Positions 2,556-31,014 of a stretch of 31,130 nt of DNA are shown here, one piece after another. Origin of the DNA: a virus; IMG/VR virus record IMGVR_UViG_3300032086_002943, positions 1 to 31,130 of that record; one strand, 5' to 3'. The position numbers and the translations under genes are program-made. A model generated the notes under the pieces. That model had not been told where the DNA came from and did not search any database. It saw nothing but the letters and a program-made list of their open reading frames with translations. The stretch's first letter is position 1, and the number at the start of each line of letters is the position of its first letter.

Positions 2556-4010
2556 ATGGCAAGGCTAACAGAGCAAGACAAAATCCCCCCTAAATCTGCG
2601 CAATCGGCAGCTAAAAAAGTTCTTGAATGGAAAGAAAAGCACGGAGACGAAGTAAAAGGAATGACCCAAACTGGCTGGACAAGAGCAAGACAAATTGCAA
2701 GCGGCGACCCCTTAAGCCTAGATACAATTAAAAGAATGTCACAATTTAGCAGACACGAAAAAAACAAAACAATCAACCCAAAATTTAAAGATGAGCCCTG
2801 GAGAGATAATGGCTATGTTGCTTGGCTAGGCTGGGGCGGTGATTCTGCTATTCTTACTTGGTCAAAAAGAATCATTGAAAAAGAAACGAAAGAAGAAAAC
2901 TCAATTAAAACAAACGCAATCACTCAAAACTTAACGGCAAAATCCTATAAAACAAGGTTTTTAGAAGCAGGGGTAGTAAACTACCCAGAACAGAATCAAA
3001 TGGTTTACATATCACCAGACAACTTGCCTATGATAGCGCAAAAATTCAAAGGCTGTAAAATAGTAATAGAACACAAAGAAGTATCAAAAGAGCAAGCACA
3101 ACAAGAAATAGTTGGTTATGTTAGCAATATATATATGGAAGACGGCTGGGCGTGGGCTGATTTTACAGTTCACTCACAAGAAGCCATTGATGCCATTAAT
3201 CAAGGTTTCAGTACAAGTTGCGCTTATAGTGCGGTCATGAAAAAAGAGGGCGGTATTAAAAACGCCGTTCAATATGATGACGAAGTTATAGATATTAGAG
3301 AAGATGATGTAATTACACATATAGCTCTAGTGCCTAATCCTCGTTATGATGATTCAATTATTCTTGAAAATTCTATTAACAACAAAATAAAAAATAAAAT
3401 CATGAATATTTTTAAATTTAAATCAGAAAAAACAGATTCTAAAGAACTTACTCTAGAAAATAGCCTATTTGAAATTGACGGCGAAGAAATGCCAGTATCT
3501 GAAATGATTTCTTATTATAAAAACGCAATGGCAGAAAAGAAAGCAAAAGAGGAAGAGGAAAAAGCTAATAAATGTAAATACGCTAATGGCGATGATAAAA
3601 TTGATATTGACGGCGAAGAAATGACTATTAGTGAATTAGCTAATTTTTACAAGAAAAACAAGAAGAAAAACGAAGAAGACAAAAAAGAAAATGAAGAAGA
3701 GAAAAAAGAGAATGAGGACAAAGAGGAAGACAAAAAAGAGAATGAGGACAAAGAGGAAGACAAAAAAGAGAATGAGGAAATGAAAAAAGAGGACAAAAAA
3801 GAAAATGAAGACAAGGAAGAGGACAAAAAAGAAAACGAAGAAGAAGAGAAAAAAGGAAATACTATGAAAAATTCTATTGAGAATGGCAGAGGTGACGATG
3901 TTAATTTAAATAGAATTAAGTATGAAAATGGAAATTCTAACCTTAACAAGCCTAAAAGAATTAGTTTATCTGAAATGCTTGAAAGAGGTCAGAATATGTT
4001 TAGCAAATAA
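2556..4010 (+). CDS. Prohead protease-like DUF2213 protein fused to a charged scaffold-like tail
   Basis: 484 residues in three parts. Residues 1-110 resemble a small N-terminal phage domain with K/R-rich helices, an RH pair and a WLGWGG motif. Residues about 125-275 match DUF2213: a metal- or protease-like core with VIEHK, GYVSNIY, FSTSCAYSAV and HIALVPNPRYDDS, as in prohead proteases. From residue 283 to the end the chain is lysine/glutamate-rich with a repeated motif IDGEEM(P/T)(V/I)SE (near 308 and 350) and a 10-residue repeat ENEDKEEDKK, as expected of an assembly scaffold. It precedes the decoration and capsid genes. The C-terminal part may also be made separately from internal ATGs at 3402 or 3864. 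Confidence 0.82.
   Translation: MARLTEQDKIPPKSAQSAAKKVLEWKEKHGDEVKGMTQTGWTRARQIASGDPLSLDTIKRMSQFSRHEKNKTINPKFKDEPWRDNGYVAWLGWGGDSAILTWSKRIIEKETKEENSIKTNAITQNLTAKSYKTRFLEAGVVNYPEQNQMVYISPDNLPMIAQKFKGCKIVIEHKEVSKEQAQQEIVGYVSNIYMEDGWAWADFTVHSQEAIDAINQGFSTSCAYSAVMKKEGGIKNAVQYDDEVIDIREDDVITHIALVPNPRYDDSIILENSINNKIKNKIMNIFKFKSEKTDSKELTLENSLFEIDGEEMPVSEMISYYKNAMAEKKAKEEEEKANKCKYANGDDKIDIDGEEMTISELANFYKKNKKKNEEDKKENEEEKKENEDKEEDKKENEDKEEDKKENEEMKKEDKKENEDKEEDKKENEEEEKKGNTMKNSIENGRGDDVNLNRIKYENGNSNLNKPKRISLSEMLERGQNMFSK
3402..4010 (+). other. Possible nested in-frame scaffold gene (internal start)
   Basis: An in-frame ATG (codon 283 of the DUF2213 gene) is preceded by ACAAAATAAAAAATAAAATC, very like the leaders of ordinary genes here, and opens the scaffold-like half beginning MNIFKFKSEK. 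It would give a 202-residue product, comparable to lambda C/Nu3, where a scaffold is encoded within the protease gene. A second in-frame ATG at 3864 has AAAGGA six bases upstream and would give 48 residues. This is inferred from sequence layout only. Confidence 0.35.
3708..3845 (+). repeat. 30-base tandem repeat encoding ENEDKEEDKK
   Basis: Two perfect 30-base copies at 3708-3737 and 3738-3767, followed by diverged copies to about 3845. The strand is almost pure purine. At the protein level it makes a long charged helix or disordered linker. Copy number is likely to vary between relatives through slippage. Confidence 0.75.
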
Positions 4011-14538: not shown

Positions 14539-15240
14539 ATGACAAATCAATTATCAAAAATAGATCAAGCAGACTTATTTTTTAACACAATTAAGAATAT
14601 TAATTTTAATCTTAATTGTCACAGGGTAGGAATTATACAATCTTTTGATGCTTCAAAGCAACTAGCTAATGTTTCTATAGTTGATAAAAGCATTAAGCTA
14701 ACAGGTATATCAAGTGAAGAGTTGGTTGATATGCCTTTACTTGAAAATTGTCCAGTTATGGTTGCAAAAAATATTAATGGCGGCCTGACTATTCCAATTA
14801 ATACTGGCGATGCGTGCCTAGTGTGTTTTAATGATAGAGATCTTGATAATTGGCTTGAAAGTGGATTAATACAAAGACCTAATACAGATAGAACACACGA
14901 TTTTTCAGACGGAATTATTATTGCAGGTATAAGAAATGATTTAAACAAAATAGATAATTTTAACAACCTTGCAACAGAATTAAATTACTTAAATAATTTA
15001 ATTTCTATTGATAGTGAAAAAATTAACTTGATTAATCAAAATGGCGGCTCTATTATTATAAATGATAAACTAGAGCTAAAAAACACAGCGGATGACCTCA
15101 AATCGATATTAGAAGAACTTGTCAATATCATAACCAATTTAAAAACTGTAGATCCTGTCAGCGGAAACTTGCCTATTGATTCTGGTACTGCTTCGGCTTT
15201 ATCTTCTTTAACCTCAAGAATAGGAGGGCTTTTAAAATAA
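14539..15240 (+). CDS. Central spike (Gp138 N-terminal domain)
   Basis: 233 residues. The N-terminal OB-type domain reads CHRVGIIQSFDASKQLANVS, followed by VDMPLLENCPVMV, NGGLTIPINTGDACLVCFND, RDLDNWLESG and HDFSDGIIIAGIR, the full signature of the Gp138 domain. Residues ~165-233 are a short beta segment with repeats GGSIIINDKLELK (spike needle) and a final helical region. It punctures the outer membrane. Confidence 0.85.
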   Translation: MTNQLSKIDQADLFFNTIKNINFNLNCHRVGIIQSFDASKQLANVSIVDKSIKLTGISSEELVDMPLLENCPVMVAKNINGGLTIPINTGDACLVCFNDRDLDNWLESGLIQRPNTDRTHDFSDGIIIAGIRNDLNKIDNFNNLATELNYLNNLISIDSEKINLINQNGGSIIINDKLELKNTADDLKSILEELVNIITNLKTVDPVSGNLPIDSGTASALSSLTSRIGGLLK

Positions 15241-26876: not shown

Positions 26877-26911
26877 AAAAAGCCTCTAGAATTAATAAAA
26901 CTCTAGAGGCT
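26875..26911 (-). terminator. Intrinsic terminator for leftward transcription
   Basis: A perfect 10-bp stem (AGCCTCTAGA at 26881-26890, TCTAGAGGCT at 26902-26911) with an 11-base loop. On the minus strand the stem is followed by seven T. On the plus strand no T-run follows, so it should terminate only leftward RNA. No leftward gene lies to the right of it. Confidence 0.75.
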
Positions 26912-27054
26912 ATAACCAATCTTTATTAACTTAATCCTTACAATGAAAACTAAATGCTGCCATAAAAAAGATCTTGTCAATATAAAACTACTAAATTTAT
27001 TTTTGTTTGTCAAGCTTTTTTTTAAAAATATTTTAAAGCTTTTTTTCTTTTTTA
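26875..27054 (-). ncRNA. Possible leftward antisense/small RNA ending at the terminator
   Basis: The terminator demands a leftward transcript. A perfect TATAAT on the minus strand (27066-27061) with TTCATA 17 bases upstream (27089-27084) would start one at about 27054, giving an RNA near 180 bases. No ORF of note is in it. The analogy is lambda OOP RNA, which is leftward and lies beside the replication gene. Candidate only. Confidence 0.3.
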
Positions 27055-27084: not shown

Positions 27085-27192
27085 ATGAAATTTTTTAAAA
27101 ATACTTTGCAATCAATTAAACAAAGGGTTAAGAAATTTTTTTCTTTAAAATTTAATGGCATTATGTTCAAAATGATACAATTTCTTTTGTAA
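27085..27192 (+). CDS. Possible 35-residue basic peptide gene
   Basis: ORF of 35 codons, KFFKNTLQSIKQRVKKFFSL then KFNGIMFKMIQFLL, amphipathic and basic. An AAGG lies about 9 bases upstream. It is within the gap 26877-27314 that otherwise holds only RNA structures. Small size and AT-rich context make chance likely. Confidence 0.3.
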   Translation: MKFFKNTLQSIKQRVKKFFSLKFNGIMFKMIQFLL

Positions 27193-27218: not shown

Positions 27219-27247
27219 TATAATTAATTCTAAATCTAGGGTACAAT
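27219..27247 (+). promoter_or_regulatory. Weak rightward promoter candidates before the replication gene
   Basis: TATAAT at 27219-27224 and TACAAT at 27242-27247 are possible -10 hexamers, but neither has a good -35 at 16-18 bases. Either would place the hairpin 27261-27288 near the 5' end of the transcript. Confidence 0.25.
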
Positions 27248-27260
27248 CAAAATATTTTAT

Positions 27261-27311
27261 GCAGAAGGGTTATCCTAGTCCCTTCTGCGCCAACCAAAAA
27301 AATAAACTAGG
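27261..27311 (+). promoter_or_regulatory. Possible H-type pseudoknot over the ribosome-binding site of the replication gene
   Basis: Stem 1 is a perfect 9-bp pairing GCAGAAGGG (27261-27269) with CCCTTCTGC (27280-27288). Loop bases CCTAGT (27274-27279) are perfectly complementary to ACTAGG (27306-27311), just before the ATG at 27315. Between them is an A-rich strand of 17 bases, the typical third loop of H-type pseudoknots. Formation would mask the AGGA. No T-run follows the hairpin, so it is not a terminator. A CTAGG at 27236-27240 could compete for the same loop. Confidence 0.55.
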
Positions 27312-27314
27312 AAG

Positions 27315-27995
27315 ATGATACGAGAAAAAAAAGGATTTATATTCTACAAGTCTTTTTACGAAGCAATAAAAGAACTTTCCAACGAGCAACAATTAAAACT
27401 CTATCAAGCAATTTTTGAGTATTCTTTTGAAGAAAAAAATAAAAAACTCGAAGGAATTTCAAAAAGTATCTTTACATTAATAAAACCTCAACTAGAAGCA
27501 AATCATAGAAAGTTTTTAAACGGCTGCAAAGGTGCAGAGCATGGAAACAAAGGGGCGGAGCATGGAAAAAAAGGGGGCAGACCTAGAAATGAAAACCCCC
27601 CAGAAAACCCCCCTAATGATGAAGCAAAAAACCCCCCAAAAAACCCCCCCAAAGATAAAGTAAAAGATAAAGATAAAGATAAAGATAAAAAAACTAAAGC
27701 AAAAAAAGATTTTTTTGATTTAGATGTTCCTGATTATGTAAATAAAGAAATTTTAAAAGACTTTATTGATACAAGAAAAAACTCAAGAAGCCCAATGAAT
27801 AAACAGGCTTTTAAGCTATTAATAAAAAAGATTAAAGATTTTAAGGAGCAAGGACAGGATATTGATAAATGCTTAGAAGAGGCAATATTAAGCAACTGGA
27901 AGTCAATATACCCATTAAAAGAAAGCAGGCAATCAAAGCCACCGATAAATATTAACACTAAAGAATACAACTATGGAACAAGCGGTAAATTTTAA
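27315..27995 (+). CDS. Phage replication initiator-like protein (DUF6291-type N-terminus)
   Basis: 226 residues. The N-terminal ~85 residues match DUF6291 (FIFYKSFYEAIKELSNEQQL, YQAIFEYSFE, LIKPQLEANHRKFLNGCKG). A basic linker follows (KGAEHGNKGAEHGKKGGRPR and NPP repeats and KD repeats, residues ~73-135). The C-terminal ~90 residues (VNKEILKDFIDTRKNSRSPM; AFKLLIKKIKDFKEQGQD; ILSNWKSIYPLK) are the pattern of phage O-like replication initiator C-termini, which recruit the helicase loader. It is translated just before the helicase loader, overlapping by 23 bases. An AGGA lies only 2 bases before the ATG. Confidence 0.78.
   Translation: MIREKKGFIFYKSFYEAIKELSNEQQLKLYQAIFEYSFEEKNKKLEGISKSIFTLIKPQLEANHRKFLNGCKGAEHGNKGAEHGKKGGRPRNENPPENPPNDEAKNPPKNPPKDKVKDKDKDKDKKTKAKKDFFDLDVPDYVNKEILKDFIDTRKNSRSPMNKQAFKLLIKKIKDFKEQGQDIDKCLEEAILSNWKSIYPLKESRQSKPPININTKEYNYGTSGKF
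27531..27691 (+). other. Origin-like repeat block inside the initiator gene
   Basis: Two 21-base near-repeats (27531-27551, 27552-27572, sharing GAGCATGGAAA) are followed by four C-runs of 6-7 bases (27596-27601, 27608-27613, 27632-27637, 27644-27650; spacing 12, 24, 12) and then an AT-rich repeat AAAGAT (27651-27691). Iterons inside an O-like gene followed by an AT-rich stretch is the lambda origin layout. The G-rich complementary strand could form a quadruplex. Coding needs (Asn-Pro-Pro repeats) could explain part of it. Confidence 0.4.
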
Positions 27996-28755
27996 TATAG
28001 AACAAAAAGAAGTAATTTATAATTGCGAGATACACGGAGAGCAAAAAAACATTTTAACTGGTCTTAATGGCAAGTTTTCAAATCCTTATTGCGAGATATG
28101 CCTTGAAGAGAAAAAAAACCAAGAAAAGGAGCTGGAAGAACAGCAAAAAAAAATAGAAGAGGAAAGGAAAAGAGAGATTATAAAACAAAGCAGTTTAATA
28201 AACTCACAAATACCACCACGCTTTTTAAAAGCCAGTTTTGATAATTATAAAACCACCACAAAAGAACAGGGTAATGCTAAAAAGATTTGTCTTGATTATG
28301 CTAGCAATTTTGAAAAAAGATTAGAAGCAGGGACAAGCCTTGTATTTGTAGGAACTTATGGAGCAGGTAAGACACATCTTGCTTGCTCAATAGCTCAAGA
28401 AATTATGAGGAAGGGTTATAGCTCGCTTTATGCAAACACTAGCAAAGCATTAAGAAGAGTTAAAGACACTTGGGGCGGAGGCGGCGAAAGAGAGCAAGAA
28501 GCAATGAATTATTTTATCAATCCTGATTTATTAATACTTGATGAAATAGGACTGCAACATGGATCAGAGGCAGAAAAAATAATCTTATTTGAAATATTAA
28601 ATGAAAGATATATGCAATGCAAACCTACAATTTTAATCAGTAATCTAGATATTAAAGACTTAAAAGAATATATTACGGAAAGAGTTATTGACAGAATGAG
28701 AGAAGGCGGAGGGCAAAAAATTGTCTTTAATTGGGAAAGCAACAGGGGGCAGTAA
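27973..28755 (+). CDS. DnaC-type helicase loader (AAA+ ATPase)
   Basis: 260 residues. N-terminal zinc-binding pattern Cys18-x2-His21 ... Cys40-x2-Cys43, a charged helix (residues 45-72), then the AAA+ core: Walker A GTYGAGKT (127-134), Walker B LLILDEIG (186-193), sensor LISN (221-224) and the C-terminal RVIDRMREGG. Matches the DnaC/IstB-like loader proteins that follow initiator genes in phages. It brings host replicative helicase to the origin. ATG lies inside the preceding gene; its stop overlaps the methylase start. Confidence 0.88.
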   Translation: MEQAVNFNIEQKEVIYNCEIHGEQKNILTGLNGKFSNPYCEICLEEKKNQEKELEEQQKKIEEERKREIIKQSSLINSQIPPRFLKASFDNYKTTTKEQGNAKKICLDYASNFEKRLEAGTSLVFVGTYGAGKTHLACSIAQEIMRKGYSSLYANTSKALRRVKDTWGGGGEREQEAMNYFINPDLLILDEIGLQHGSEAEKIILFEILNERYMQCKPTILISNLDIKDLKEYITERVIDRMREGGGQKIVFNWESNRGQ

Positions 28756-29726
28756 TGATAAATAGAGATTTATTTGGACTTCCAATAATACCGCAAGATA
28801 TTAAAAACTTAAGAATGCCTTATATGGGATCTAAAAATAAAATCGCTGTTGACTTAATAAAAAAAATGCTAGAAGTAAAACCTAATGCAAAATATTTTTT
28901 TGATCTTTGCGGTGGTGGTGGTTCAATGTCTTTTACTGCTTCACAAATAGGGCTAAAAACTCACTACAACGAATTACAAACAAGCTTAGTTAAATTTATA
29001 GATTATATCTTTAATAGGCTTGAAAATGGCTTAAAAGGGCAATATGGATTATTTCCAGATGATTTTTATAATTTTATAGATAGAGATGAGTTTATGAAGT
29101 TAAAAAATGAAGATAGTATAAAAGGGCAATTTGCTAGAATATGTTATTCTTTTGGCAATAATCAGAAAGGTTATTTATTTGGAGATATAGAAAAAACAAG
29201 ACATTTAGCTCATGATATAATAATGTTTAGATGTAAAAAGTCTTTGAAAGAGTTTAATAAGCTAAACAAAGTTAATTATGCAATTAGTAATGCTAAAACT
29301 TGGAATGAAAGAAGGTTGCATCATAAAGCTGAATGGCGTCAACATATGAAAATAAAAGATTGCCCAAAACTTGAACTTTTACAAAATATGGAAGGACTGC
29401 AACGACTGAAACAACTGGAACAACTGCAACCTATATTTACAACCTCTAATCTATCGTATAAAGAAGTTAAAATCAATACCCCTATTGAAGAAACTATAAT
29501 TTATTTAGATCCGCCATATAGAAATACTGGCAAATATATTGAGGGTAAAGACTTTAATTATAAAGAATTAGATCAATGGTTTTTAGATAATAAATATACT
29601 TGTTTTATGAGTGAATATAATGCACCGCATGAAGTAATATTTGAGATAGATAAATTAAGTTTATTGAACCCAAAAGAAAAAAAGGAAATAATGCAAGAAA
29701 AATTATACTGGAACAAAAAATTATAA
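28755..29726 (+). CDS. D12-class DNA adenine (N6) methyltransferase
   Basis: 323 residues. The start at 28755 shares one base with the loader's TAA stop and follows GGGGG; an in-frame ATG at 28731 inside the previous gene is less likely. The motif order is MPYMGSKNKIA (AdoMet-binding entrance), DLCGGGGSMSF (motif I, ~50-60), and YLDPPYRNTGKY (motif IV DPPY, ~250-262), typical of Dam-like enzymes. The middle carries a Leu/Gln-rich segment (GLQRLKQLEQLQ) from a 9-base tandem repeat. It probably methylates phage DNA to evade restriction; target site not visible. Confidence 0.85.
   Translation: MINRDLFGLPIIPQDIKNLRMPYMGSKNKIAVDLIKKMLEVKPNAKYFFDLCGGGGSMSFTASQIGLKTHYNELQTSLVKFIDYIFNRLENGLKGQYGLFPDDFYNFIDRDEFMKLKNEDSIKGQFARICYSFGNNQKGYLFGDIEKTRHLAHDIIMFRCKKSLKEFNKLNKVNYAISNAKTWNERRLHHKAEWRQHMKIKDCPKLELLQNMEGLQRLKQLEQLQPIFTTSNLSYKEVKINTPIEETIIYLDPPYRNTGKYIEGKDFNYKELDQWFLDNKYTCFMSEYNAPHEVIFEIDKLSLLNPKEKKEIMQEKLYWNKKL
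29395..29430 (+). repeat. 9-base tandem repeat in the adenine methylase
   Basis: Four consecutive 9-base units of form (G/A)ACTG(C/A/G)AAC encoding the Leu/Gln run. It lies between motifs I and IV, in the region where D12 methylases differ. From memory, other phage D12 methylases carry similar Leu/Gln repeats there. Confidence 0.65.
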
Positions 29727-29960: not shown

Positions 29961-31014
29961 TCAATTAAATAAATAAAATTATGAAAGTATTATCTTTATT
30001 TGATGGAATATCAGGAGCAAGGCAAGCATTAAAAGAATTAGGTATTGATTGCGAGTATTATGCAAGCGAGATTGACAAATATGCAATACAGGTTGCTAAA
30101 ACTAACCACCCTGATATTGTGCATATTGGAGATGTAAAAGGTATTGCAATTTATAATGACTGGGGTGATACTAGAGCATTTAGAGTTAATGAAGGCTGCC
30201 CTTTTACTGCTTATGATCAAGATGTTTCAGAAATAGATTTGCTTATAGGTGGTTCACCCTGTCAAGATTTATCAATAGCTAAAAAAGATAGAAAAGGATT
30301 AGATGGCGACAGATCAAGCCTATTTTATGAATACTTAAGAATATTAAATGAGGCTAAACCTAAATACTTTATACTAGAAAATGTTGCTAGTATGAGTAAA
30401 GCAAGTAAAGAGCTAATCACAAAAGAATTATTTGATATAGAGCCTATAATGATTAATAGTGCTTTATTAACTGCTCAACAACGCAAGAGGCTTTACTGGG
30501 TCGGCAAGTTAGTTGATGGCAAATATAGGCAAGTAAAGATAGAGCAACCAGAAGATCAAGAAATTTATTTAAAAGACATTATAGAAGATGGGGTTACTGA
30601 TCGCGATAAATCATATTGCATTGATGCCAATTATCACAAGGGAGGTAATTTAAAAAGTTATTTTAAAAAAGGCAGAAGGCAGTTAGTTTTTAATAAACCA
30701 TTAAGAGTAGGACATTTTAACAAAGGCGGACAAGGAGATAGAGTGTATTCTCAAGATGGTAGAACAGAACAGCGACTTGAAACTAGCTATTCAGAAAAAG
30801 CAAACTCCTTAACTACGGTGCAAAAAGACAGCATGCTTTTAAATGATTATAAAATTAGAAAACTAACCCCTACTGAATGTTGCAGACTTCAAGGCTTCCC
30901 TGACAATTATGTGTCAATGGTTAGCAATACACAAGGTTATAAAGCGCTTGGCAATAGCTTTACAGTGCCAGTAATTAAACATATTATTAATCAATTAAAT
31001 AAATAAAATTATGA
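29954..31014 (+). repeat. 31-base perfect direct repeat bracketing the cytosine methylase gene
   Basis: Copies at 29954-29984 and 30984-31014 are identical, the first at the end of the zinc-ribbon gene through ATGA, the second at the end of the methylase gene through the next ATGA. The unit between copies is exactly the methylase gene with one leader. The second copy also encodes the methylase C-terminus (INQLNK and stop). Confidence 0.85.
29981..31006 (+). CDS. C5-cytosine DNA methyltransferase
   Basis: 341 residues, complete. Motif I VLSLFDGISGARQAL, motif IV GGSPCQDLS with catalytic Cys94, motif VI FILENVASM, motif VIII QQRKRLYWVG, motif IX RKLTPTECCRLQGFPD and motif X ALGNSFTVPV are all in order, with the target-recognition region at about 180-290. 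This is a typical phage 5mC methylase; no restriction partner is nearby, so it likely protects phage DNA. It stands between two 31-base direct repeats. Confidence 0.93.
   Translation: MKVLSLFDGISGARQALKELGIDCEYYASEIDKYAIQVAKTNHPDIVHIGDVKGIAIYNDWGDTRAFRVNEGCPFTAYDQDVSEIDLLIGGSPCQDLSIAKKDRKGLDGDRSSLFYEYLRILNEAKPKYFILENVASMSKASKELITKELFDIEPIMINSALLTAQQRKRLYWVGKLVDGKYRQVKIEQPEDQEIYLKDIIEDGVTDRDKSYCIDANYHKGGNLKSYFKKGRRQLVFNKPLRVGHFNKGGQGDRVYSQDGRTEQRLETSYSEKANSLTTVQKDSMLLNDYKIRKLTPTECCRLQGFPDNYVSMVSNTQGYKALGNSFTVPVIKHIINQLNK

Follow-up and report, generated by a model that had tools for sequence, protein, structure and literature searches.

In plasmid ColIb-P9, a pseudoknot activates repZ in a manner that requires a leader peptide, with an antisense RNA acting as competitor. 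Judging from titles cited in PMC10724649, the ColIb-P9 repZ pseudoknot involves competition for one loop, and single loop changes shift incompatibility in IncK plasmids (PMC10724649). In phage P4, the CI RNA silences the replication genes by pairing with two sites that flank it, seqA on the upstream and seqC on the downstream side, and transcription termination in the lysogen proceeds via a processed, trans-acting RNA (PMC4825925). The pseudoknot of gene 32 in phage T4 lies well upstream of the AUG and is followed by >40 less structured nucleotides, a segment that T4 gp32 binds cooperatively (PMC535899).

The stretch of DNA analyzed here (the window) is a 31,130-base phage fragment carrying head, tail, and replication genes. 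A first-pass annotation of this stretch had proposed that an H-type pseudoknot overlaps the beginning of a replication gene, and we confirmed the structure as described, at positions 27261 to 27312, ahead of the start of a DUF6291 gene. The product of this gene is replication-initiation O-like, and a gene for a DnaC-like helicase loader follows it in the operon (Table 1). The predicted stem (S1) is indeed perfect over 9 bp, and T27260 and G27289 can form a tenth, wobble pair. The six loop bases that had been paired with ACTAGG do so (CCTAGT at 27274 to 27279 with ACTAGG at 27306 to 27311), and U27273-A27312 brings the second helix (S2) to seven pairs. ACTAGG had been placed directly before the ATG; it is close to it, but 3 nt (AAG) intervene. 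The third loop (L3) is A-rich, as claimed. Two DNA methyltransferase genes, of the D12-class adenine and C5-cytosine types, lie right after the replication genes (28755 to 29726 and 29981 to 31006).

Table 1. Positions of the leader elements and associated genes in the window, in the relative L001, and in other DUF6291 phages
Feature	Position	Strand	Sequence or remark
Window: S1, 5' strand	27261-27269	+	GCAGAAGGG
Window: S1, 3' strand	27280-27288	+	CCCTTCTGC
Window: hairpin loop, 10 nt	27270-27279	+	TTATCCTAGT
Window: L element, partner of D	27273-27279	+	UCCUAGU; inside the hairpin loop
Window: loop segment pairing with U	27271-27278	+	UAUCCUAG
Window: L3, A-rich, 17 nt (12 nt in L001)	27289-27305	+	GCCAACCAAAAAAATAA
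Window: D element, downstream loop partner	27306-27312	+	ACUAGGA; ends 2 nt before AUG (3 nt in L001)
Window: U element, upstream loop partner	27236-27243	+	CUAGGGUA
Window: probable -10 element	27219-27224	+	TATAAT; conserved, L001 2907-2912
Window: DUF6291 gene, replication-initiation O-like	27315-27995	+	PF19808, E 5.7e-23; phrog_678, E 9.5e-19
Window: DnaC-like helicase loader, second operon gene	27973-28755	+	phrog_50, E 8e-77
L001: U element	2921-2928		GACUAGAC
L001: S1, 5' strand	2949-2957		TGTAGAGGG
L001: S1, 3' strand	2969-2977		CCCTCTACA
L001: hairpin loop	2958-2968		ATCGTCTAGTC
L001: L element, pairs with D	2961-2968		GTCTAGTC
L001: D element	2990-2997		GGCTAGAC; ends 3 nt before ATG
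R1/A4 leader loci	L013:2867-2985, L024:2867-2985, L029:2865-2985, L022:2867-2977, L010:141-256		15 or more further loci

When relatives were sought by protein (DUF6291, DnaC-like, a 68-aa ORF, and capsid genes), a 44.6-kb contig, L001, was the only other IMG/VR sequence that spanned the locus; it shares ~85% DNA identity with the window over their common genes. Scans of IMG/VR with DNA patterns of the hairpin returned the window and L001 and no third copy. Four further close fragments carry capsid genes only, and one distant DUF6291 gene, found by genome contig search in a gammaproteobacterial MAG, is without the element. Among named phages, Bdellovibrio phage phi1422 comes closest, at 36% in its capsid protein.

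The geometry of the pseudoknot is shared by the two phages: the first loop is 3 nt, S2 is 7 to 8 bp, L3 is 12 to 17 nt and A/U-rich, and the loop between the stems (L2) is 0 nt, such that S2 adjoins the 3' strand of S1. Such a geometry is that of a classical coaxial H-type pseudoknot. The window is AT-rich and contains many weak inverted repeats, which speaks for a chance hairpin with chance complementarity. A descriptor specifying a stem of at least 9 bp, a loop of 8 to 14 nt, and at least 6 bp between the loop and downstream sequence gave two matches when the + strand of the window was scanned over its 31 kb, namely, the pseudoknot and one reading of the terminator at 26881 to 26911, whereas shuffled windows matched it 0.28 times on average. 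Only 4 of 3,000 dinucleotide shuffles of the local 131 nt matched it. Together with the three-way compensation in L001 described below, these counts make a chance match very unlikely, and we rate it the least probable of the explanations considered here. The pseudoknot is a real, functional-looking RNA element whose three complementary parts have changed together in L001, so that a switch on the DUF6291 gene is the likely class of mechanism.

The first-pass annotation had also pointed to a CTAGG at 27236 as an alternative partner for the loop. This sequence proved to be part of a longer element, U, whose CUAGGGUA (27236 to 27243) pairs with UAUCCUAG (27271 to 27278) in the loop over 8 bp, including one G-U pair; the complementarity between U and the loop (U:L) is 8 bp in both phages. 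U and D were the top two partners of the loop in each phage in a scan of ~1.1 kb around the locus. Calculated as duplexes, which leaves out pseudoknot entropy, the U:L helix has an energy of -9.8 kcal/mol in the window and -12.3 kcal/mol in L001, while the L:D helix has an energy of -9.4 kcal/mol (7 bp) and -11.7 kcal/mol (8 bp), respectively. When the loop and its partner were taken from different phages, the helix energy was only -3.9 to -5.6 kcal/mol. Because the upstream CTAGG is conserved as a loop partner equally well as the downstream one, we consider it part of the element and an equal of D. U:L and L:D are mutually exclusive, as one loop serves two partners, and either should be compatible with an intact S1, since the linkers of ~17 to 20 and 12 to 17 nt would suffice. 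Pairing between U and D was also considered and was dropped, as in L001 it amounts to a CTAG palindrome only.

Changes in relatives that break the pairings without compensation had been named as the observation that would count against the structure. In the one comparison available, L001 instead alters all three elements with compensation. Its S1 again forms nine perfect pairs, with C-G replaced by U-A plus other changes relative to the window. Loop positions L-1/-2 change from C,U to U,G, while D+1/+2 change from G,A to A,C and U+1/+2 from G,G to A,C, so that U, L, and D are altered together and pairing is maintained. We compared this outcome with a simple substitution null, restricted to runs with as many changes in stem and loop as observed and modeled without indels whereas the stem has one one-base indel. 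Under this null, S1 survived in ~0.1 to 0.6% of runs, U:L in ~0.6 to 1.6%, and L:D in ~2%, the latter two being not fully independent tests because U and D are near-direct repeats. All three helices survived together in 0 of >500,000 qualifying null runs. Since the element is known as two distinct sequences only, the covariation is that of one pairwise comparison.

Our preferred reading of these data, which we hold to be about as probable as its negation, is that the locus encodes a bistable, cis-acting leader RNA whose L element takes either U or D as its partner and thereby controls translation of the replication operon. That the element acts at the level of RNA, as well as its start site and the sign of its effect, is what we infer from the DNA sequence. 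Transcription would begin just ahead of U, and U would capture L co-transcriptionally as the hairpin emerges, leaving D and the AUG open. L could then switch to D after refolding, after loss of the U-bearing 5' end, or upon binding of a factor, and the candidate triggers are a phage protein, a copy of the hairpin acting in trans, processing of the RNA, or simply time. In the L:D state, the RNA would adopt the coaxial H-type pseudoknot 2 to 3 nt ahead of the AUG, which would probably keep 30S subunits from loading on the gene for the replication initiator and so limit replication. The near-equal energies of U:L and L:D fit such a balanced switch. The leader reading is further supported by the position of D, which ends 2 to 3 nt before the AUG in both phages, and by unrelated DUF6291 phages that independently carry a 10-nt-loop hairpin paired to a downstream expression platform (see below).

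The first-pass annotation suggested that the pseudoknot hides the ribosome-binding region. It does occupy the bases adjacent to the AUG; however, most genes of the window phage have no Shine-Dalgarno sequence (exceptions are found at 15240 and 28755), and L001 has none before the DUF6291 ATG. Given that the Shine-Dalgarno sequence is mostly absent, and absent in L001, the D strand is better viewed as taking up the part of the ribosome footprint next to the AUG, rather than as masking a Shine-Dalgarno sequence. Upstream, the conserved TATAAT would place the 5' end of the RNA ~5 nt ahead of U; no good candidate for a -35 element was found with it. A crude scan detected no minus-strand promoter-like site reading through the hairpin in either phage.

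Several other repeats were observed upstream of the leader. An operator-like inverted repeat, TGTTCAAAATNRTACAA, is present in one copy in the window (27168 to 27185) and in two tandem copies in L001 (2829 to 2849 and 2852 to 2872), ~40 to 60 bp upstream of the conserved TATAAT, and is probably a regulator site. Two copies of TTGTCAA, 33 bp apart (26974 to 26980 and 27007 to 27013) and conserved in L001, are candidate -35-like or operator sites. The 13-bp terminator-like hairpin at 26881 to 26911, which lies ahead of the intergenic region and has its T-run on the minus-strand side, shows compensated changes in L001 (GCCTCTAGA to CCCCTAGA).

Compared with the described systems, the element resembles ColIb-P9 repZ in principle and matches P4 immunity in layout. 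As in IncI/ColIb-P9 (and IncB and IncL/M), a stem-loop has a loop complementary to the bases immediately ahead of a replication gene, and competition for the loop, which sets expression in ColIb-P9, is proposed to do so here. The two differ in that the competitor, U, is in cis, with no antisense promoter detected by the crude scan, and in that no leader peptide is conserved. The window does contain a 19-codon ORF (ATG 27259, 27259 to 27318; MQKGYPSPFCANQKNKLGR*) whose reading frame spans the hairpin and whose stop codon overlaps the start of the replication gene (ATGA), as might be expected for leader-peptide coupling of the ColIb-P9 repY/repZ or R1 tap type. In L001, however, this position reads ATG-TAG, which breaks the ORF at codon 2 and leaves no leader ORF, and in the window the ORF has no ribosome-binding site in front of it. 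Because the ORF is broken and the leader has no ORF conserved between the two phages, leader-peptide control is not supported, and we regard it as highly improbable, only a little less so than chance.

The likeness to P4 lies in the order of the elements, U, hairpin (L), and D, within the untranslated leader of a replication operon (DUF6291/O-like and then DnaC-like loader), and in the single loop complementary over 7 to 8 bp to one upstream and one downstream site in both phages. The element differs from P4 in that D adjoins the AUG and in that there is no sequence match to P4. P4-like control in trans is the main rival to the bistable leader, although we consider it unlikely. The processed hairpin, with L equivalent to seqB, would act in trans on new transcripts by pairing with their U (seqA) and D (seqC) elements and silence the replication operons of incoming or extra genomes, thereby providing RNA immunity or copy control; the three elements would co-diverge because they set immunity specificity. 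The layout is identical to that around CI RNA, whose targets are seqA on the upstream and seqC on the downstream side (PMC4825925), the loop matches U and D equally well, and close relatives share the scaffold but not the pairing bases, as in the incompatibility loops of plasmid RNAI (PMC10724649). On the other hand, the hairpin as a processed small RNA is hypothetical, there is no match to C4 or another Rfam RNA, and no tyrosine integrase (the only type sought) was found in the 44.6-kb L001 contig, which is possibly incomplete.

A protein could also act on the RNA. If the pseudoknot were an autogenous operator, it would be the landing site for the DUF6291 protein, the DnaC-like loader, or SSB, and the bound protein would then cover the A/U-rich start region in the manner of T4 gp32. 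The element resembles T4/RB69 gene 32 in that a phage DNA-replication gene is preceded by an H-type pseudoknot together with an A/U-rich start region (PMC535899), and such an operator would be compatible with competition between U and D. Nevertheless, the T4 pseudoknot is followed by >40 unstructured nucleotides that include the start, whereas here the pseudoknot reaches to 2 to 3 nt from the AUG. Sequence divergence is also tolerated by gp32, but in the present element each base of U, L, and D is constrained by its partners. An autogenous operator seems to us a doubtful explanation, more so than control in trans.

Alternatively, the conserved unit could be DNA, with CTAG-centered iterons bound by the initiator or another protein, or with a single-strand origin hairpin in an AT-rich intergenic stretch. 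AT-rich tracts ahead of replication genes are common at origins, and the stretch has 17 to 19% GC; moreover, the concerted change of three CTAG elements could reflect co-evolving protein sites. Yet there are three copies only, one of them inverted within the hairpin, and CTAGGA/TCCTAG does not cluster elsewhere. In the 44.6 kb of L001, GNCTAGAC occurs four times, three of them at the locus, and the DNA-site reading is weakened because GNCTAGAC thus occurs only once outside it. A DNA element also leaves the perfect, compensated 9-bp stem and the AUG-adjacent register unexplained, and we judge it improbable.

The first-pass annotation raised a response to a ligand and a resemblance to preQ1-type switches. 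The resemblance holds insofar as the element, like preQ1-I (RF00522), is a small H-type pseudoknot with an A-rich L3 and a 3' strand that lies beside, and here overlaps, the start region. However, Rfam 15 gave no match at the gathering threshold in the window or L001, including to preQ1 and C4, and a relaxed search returned chance matches only, far under threshold. Further, S2 is an ordinary 7- to 8-bp Watson-Crick helix whose sequence changes with its partners, the two phages share no unpaired conserved pocket for a ligand, the specificity bases vary freely as long as they are paired, and no metabolic gene is involved. The proposed ligand response gained no support, there being no match to a ligand-binding RNA in Rfam, and a riboswitch with a preQ1-like small H-type aptamer is very improbable. 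P1/P7 C4 antisense RNA (RF01695) likewise belongs to a phage leader and has short stretches that can pair with a start region; the element described here differs from it in being a single hairpin rather than the C4 fold, and in having no Rfam match.

Leader RNAs were also found in other DUF6291 phages. In alignment A4 (14 aligned sequences), a 5' hairpin has a 10-nt loop consisting of an A and a 9-nt segment, X, which pairs with X', and X' lies inside a terminator-like hairpin that ends in a T-run just before the gene. Standard pairs make up 98.3% of the cells of the alignment, and double changes are present in 54 cells, whereas shuffles gave 12.6; within the crossing X:X' helix by itself, four pairs show double changes. 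A covariance model, R1, found six loci outside the alignment (E of ~3e-18 or better). At these loci the RNA again stands at the head of the operon, which there begins one gene earlier, and X:X' is kept in all six. The R1/A4 leaders stand at the head of the early operon, with Bacteroidetes-type promoters (TTTTG/TATNTTTG) upstream, and match no Rfam family, so they possibly constitute an undescribed RNA family.

Like the window element, these leaders have a 10-nt-loop hairpin with nearly the whole loop paired to a platform before the DUF6291 gene, and their loop and partner co-diverge. They differ in that they are unrelated in sequence to it, in that the partner lies in an intrinsic-terminator-like hairpin rather than at the AUG, and in that they have no U-like third element. 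Since R1 matched neither the 27.2-kb region of the window nor L001, we do not claim homology between the two. Further leaders of unrelated sequence were seen by eye in L040, L041, L100, L102, L107, L108, L110, L114, and L003 (for example, GGTAACGTT/AACGTTACC in L108 and TGTCGAATC/GATTCGACA in L003); in these leaders, the DUF6291 gene is directly preceded by a hairpin whose loop can pair with part of a loop further upstream. An automated loop-in-hairpin score was too unspecific to count leader types, missing several of those seen by eye, and we therefore relied on the aligned group A4.

Because the window element and the R1 leaders share a design, we give some weight to a more general reading, unlikely though we consider it, in which many phages would have leaders of one design at the head of their early replication operons, with an ~10-nt loop paired almost entirely to a downstream platform and the two diversifying together as a phage-specific code. 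The platform would be a terminator in most phages and the start codon in the window phage. By analogy with P4 and plasmid incompatibility, such leaders would mediate RNA-based control or mutual exclusion of replication across unrelated phages.

If the bistable leader reading is right, the locus would be a compact RNA switch on a phage replication initiator, in which one loop serves two interchangeable, co-evolving partners, and P4-like RNA control of replication would extend to environmental tailed phages that so far give no sign of lysogeny. The R1 leader, which is well supported and apparently undescribed, stands before the same gene family in other phages, and with it the notion that phages control replication through an RNA specificity code becomes open to test.
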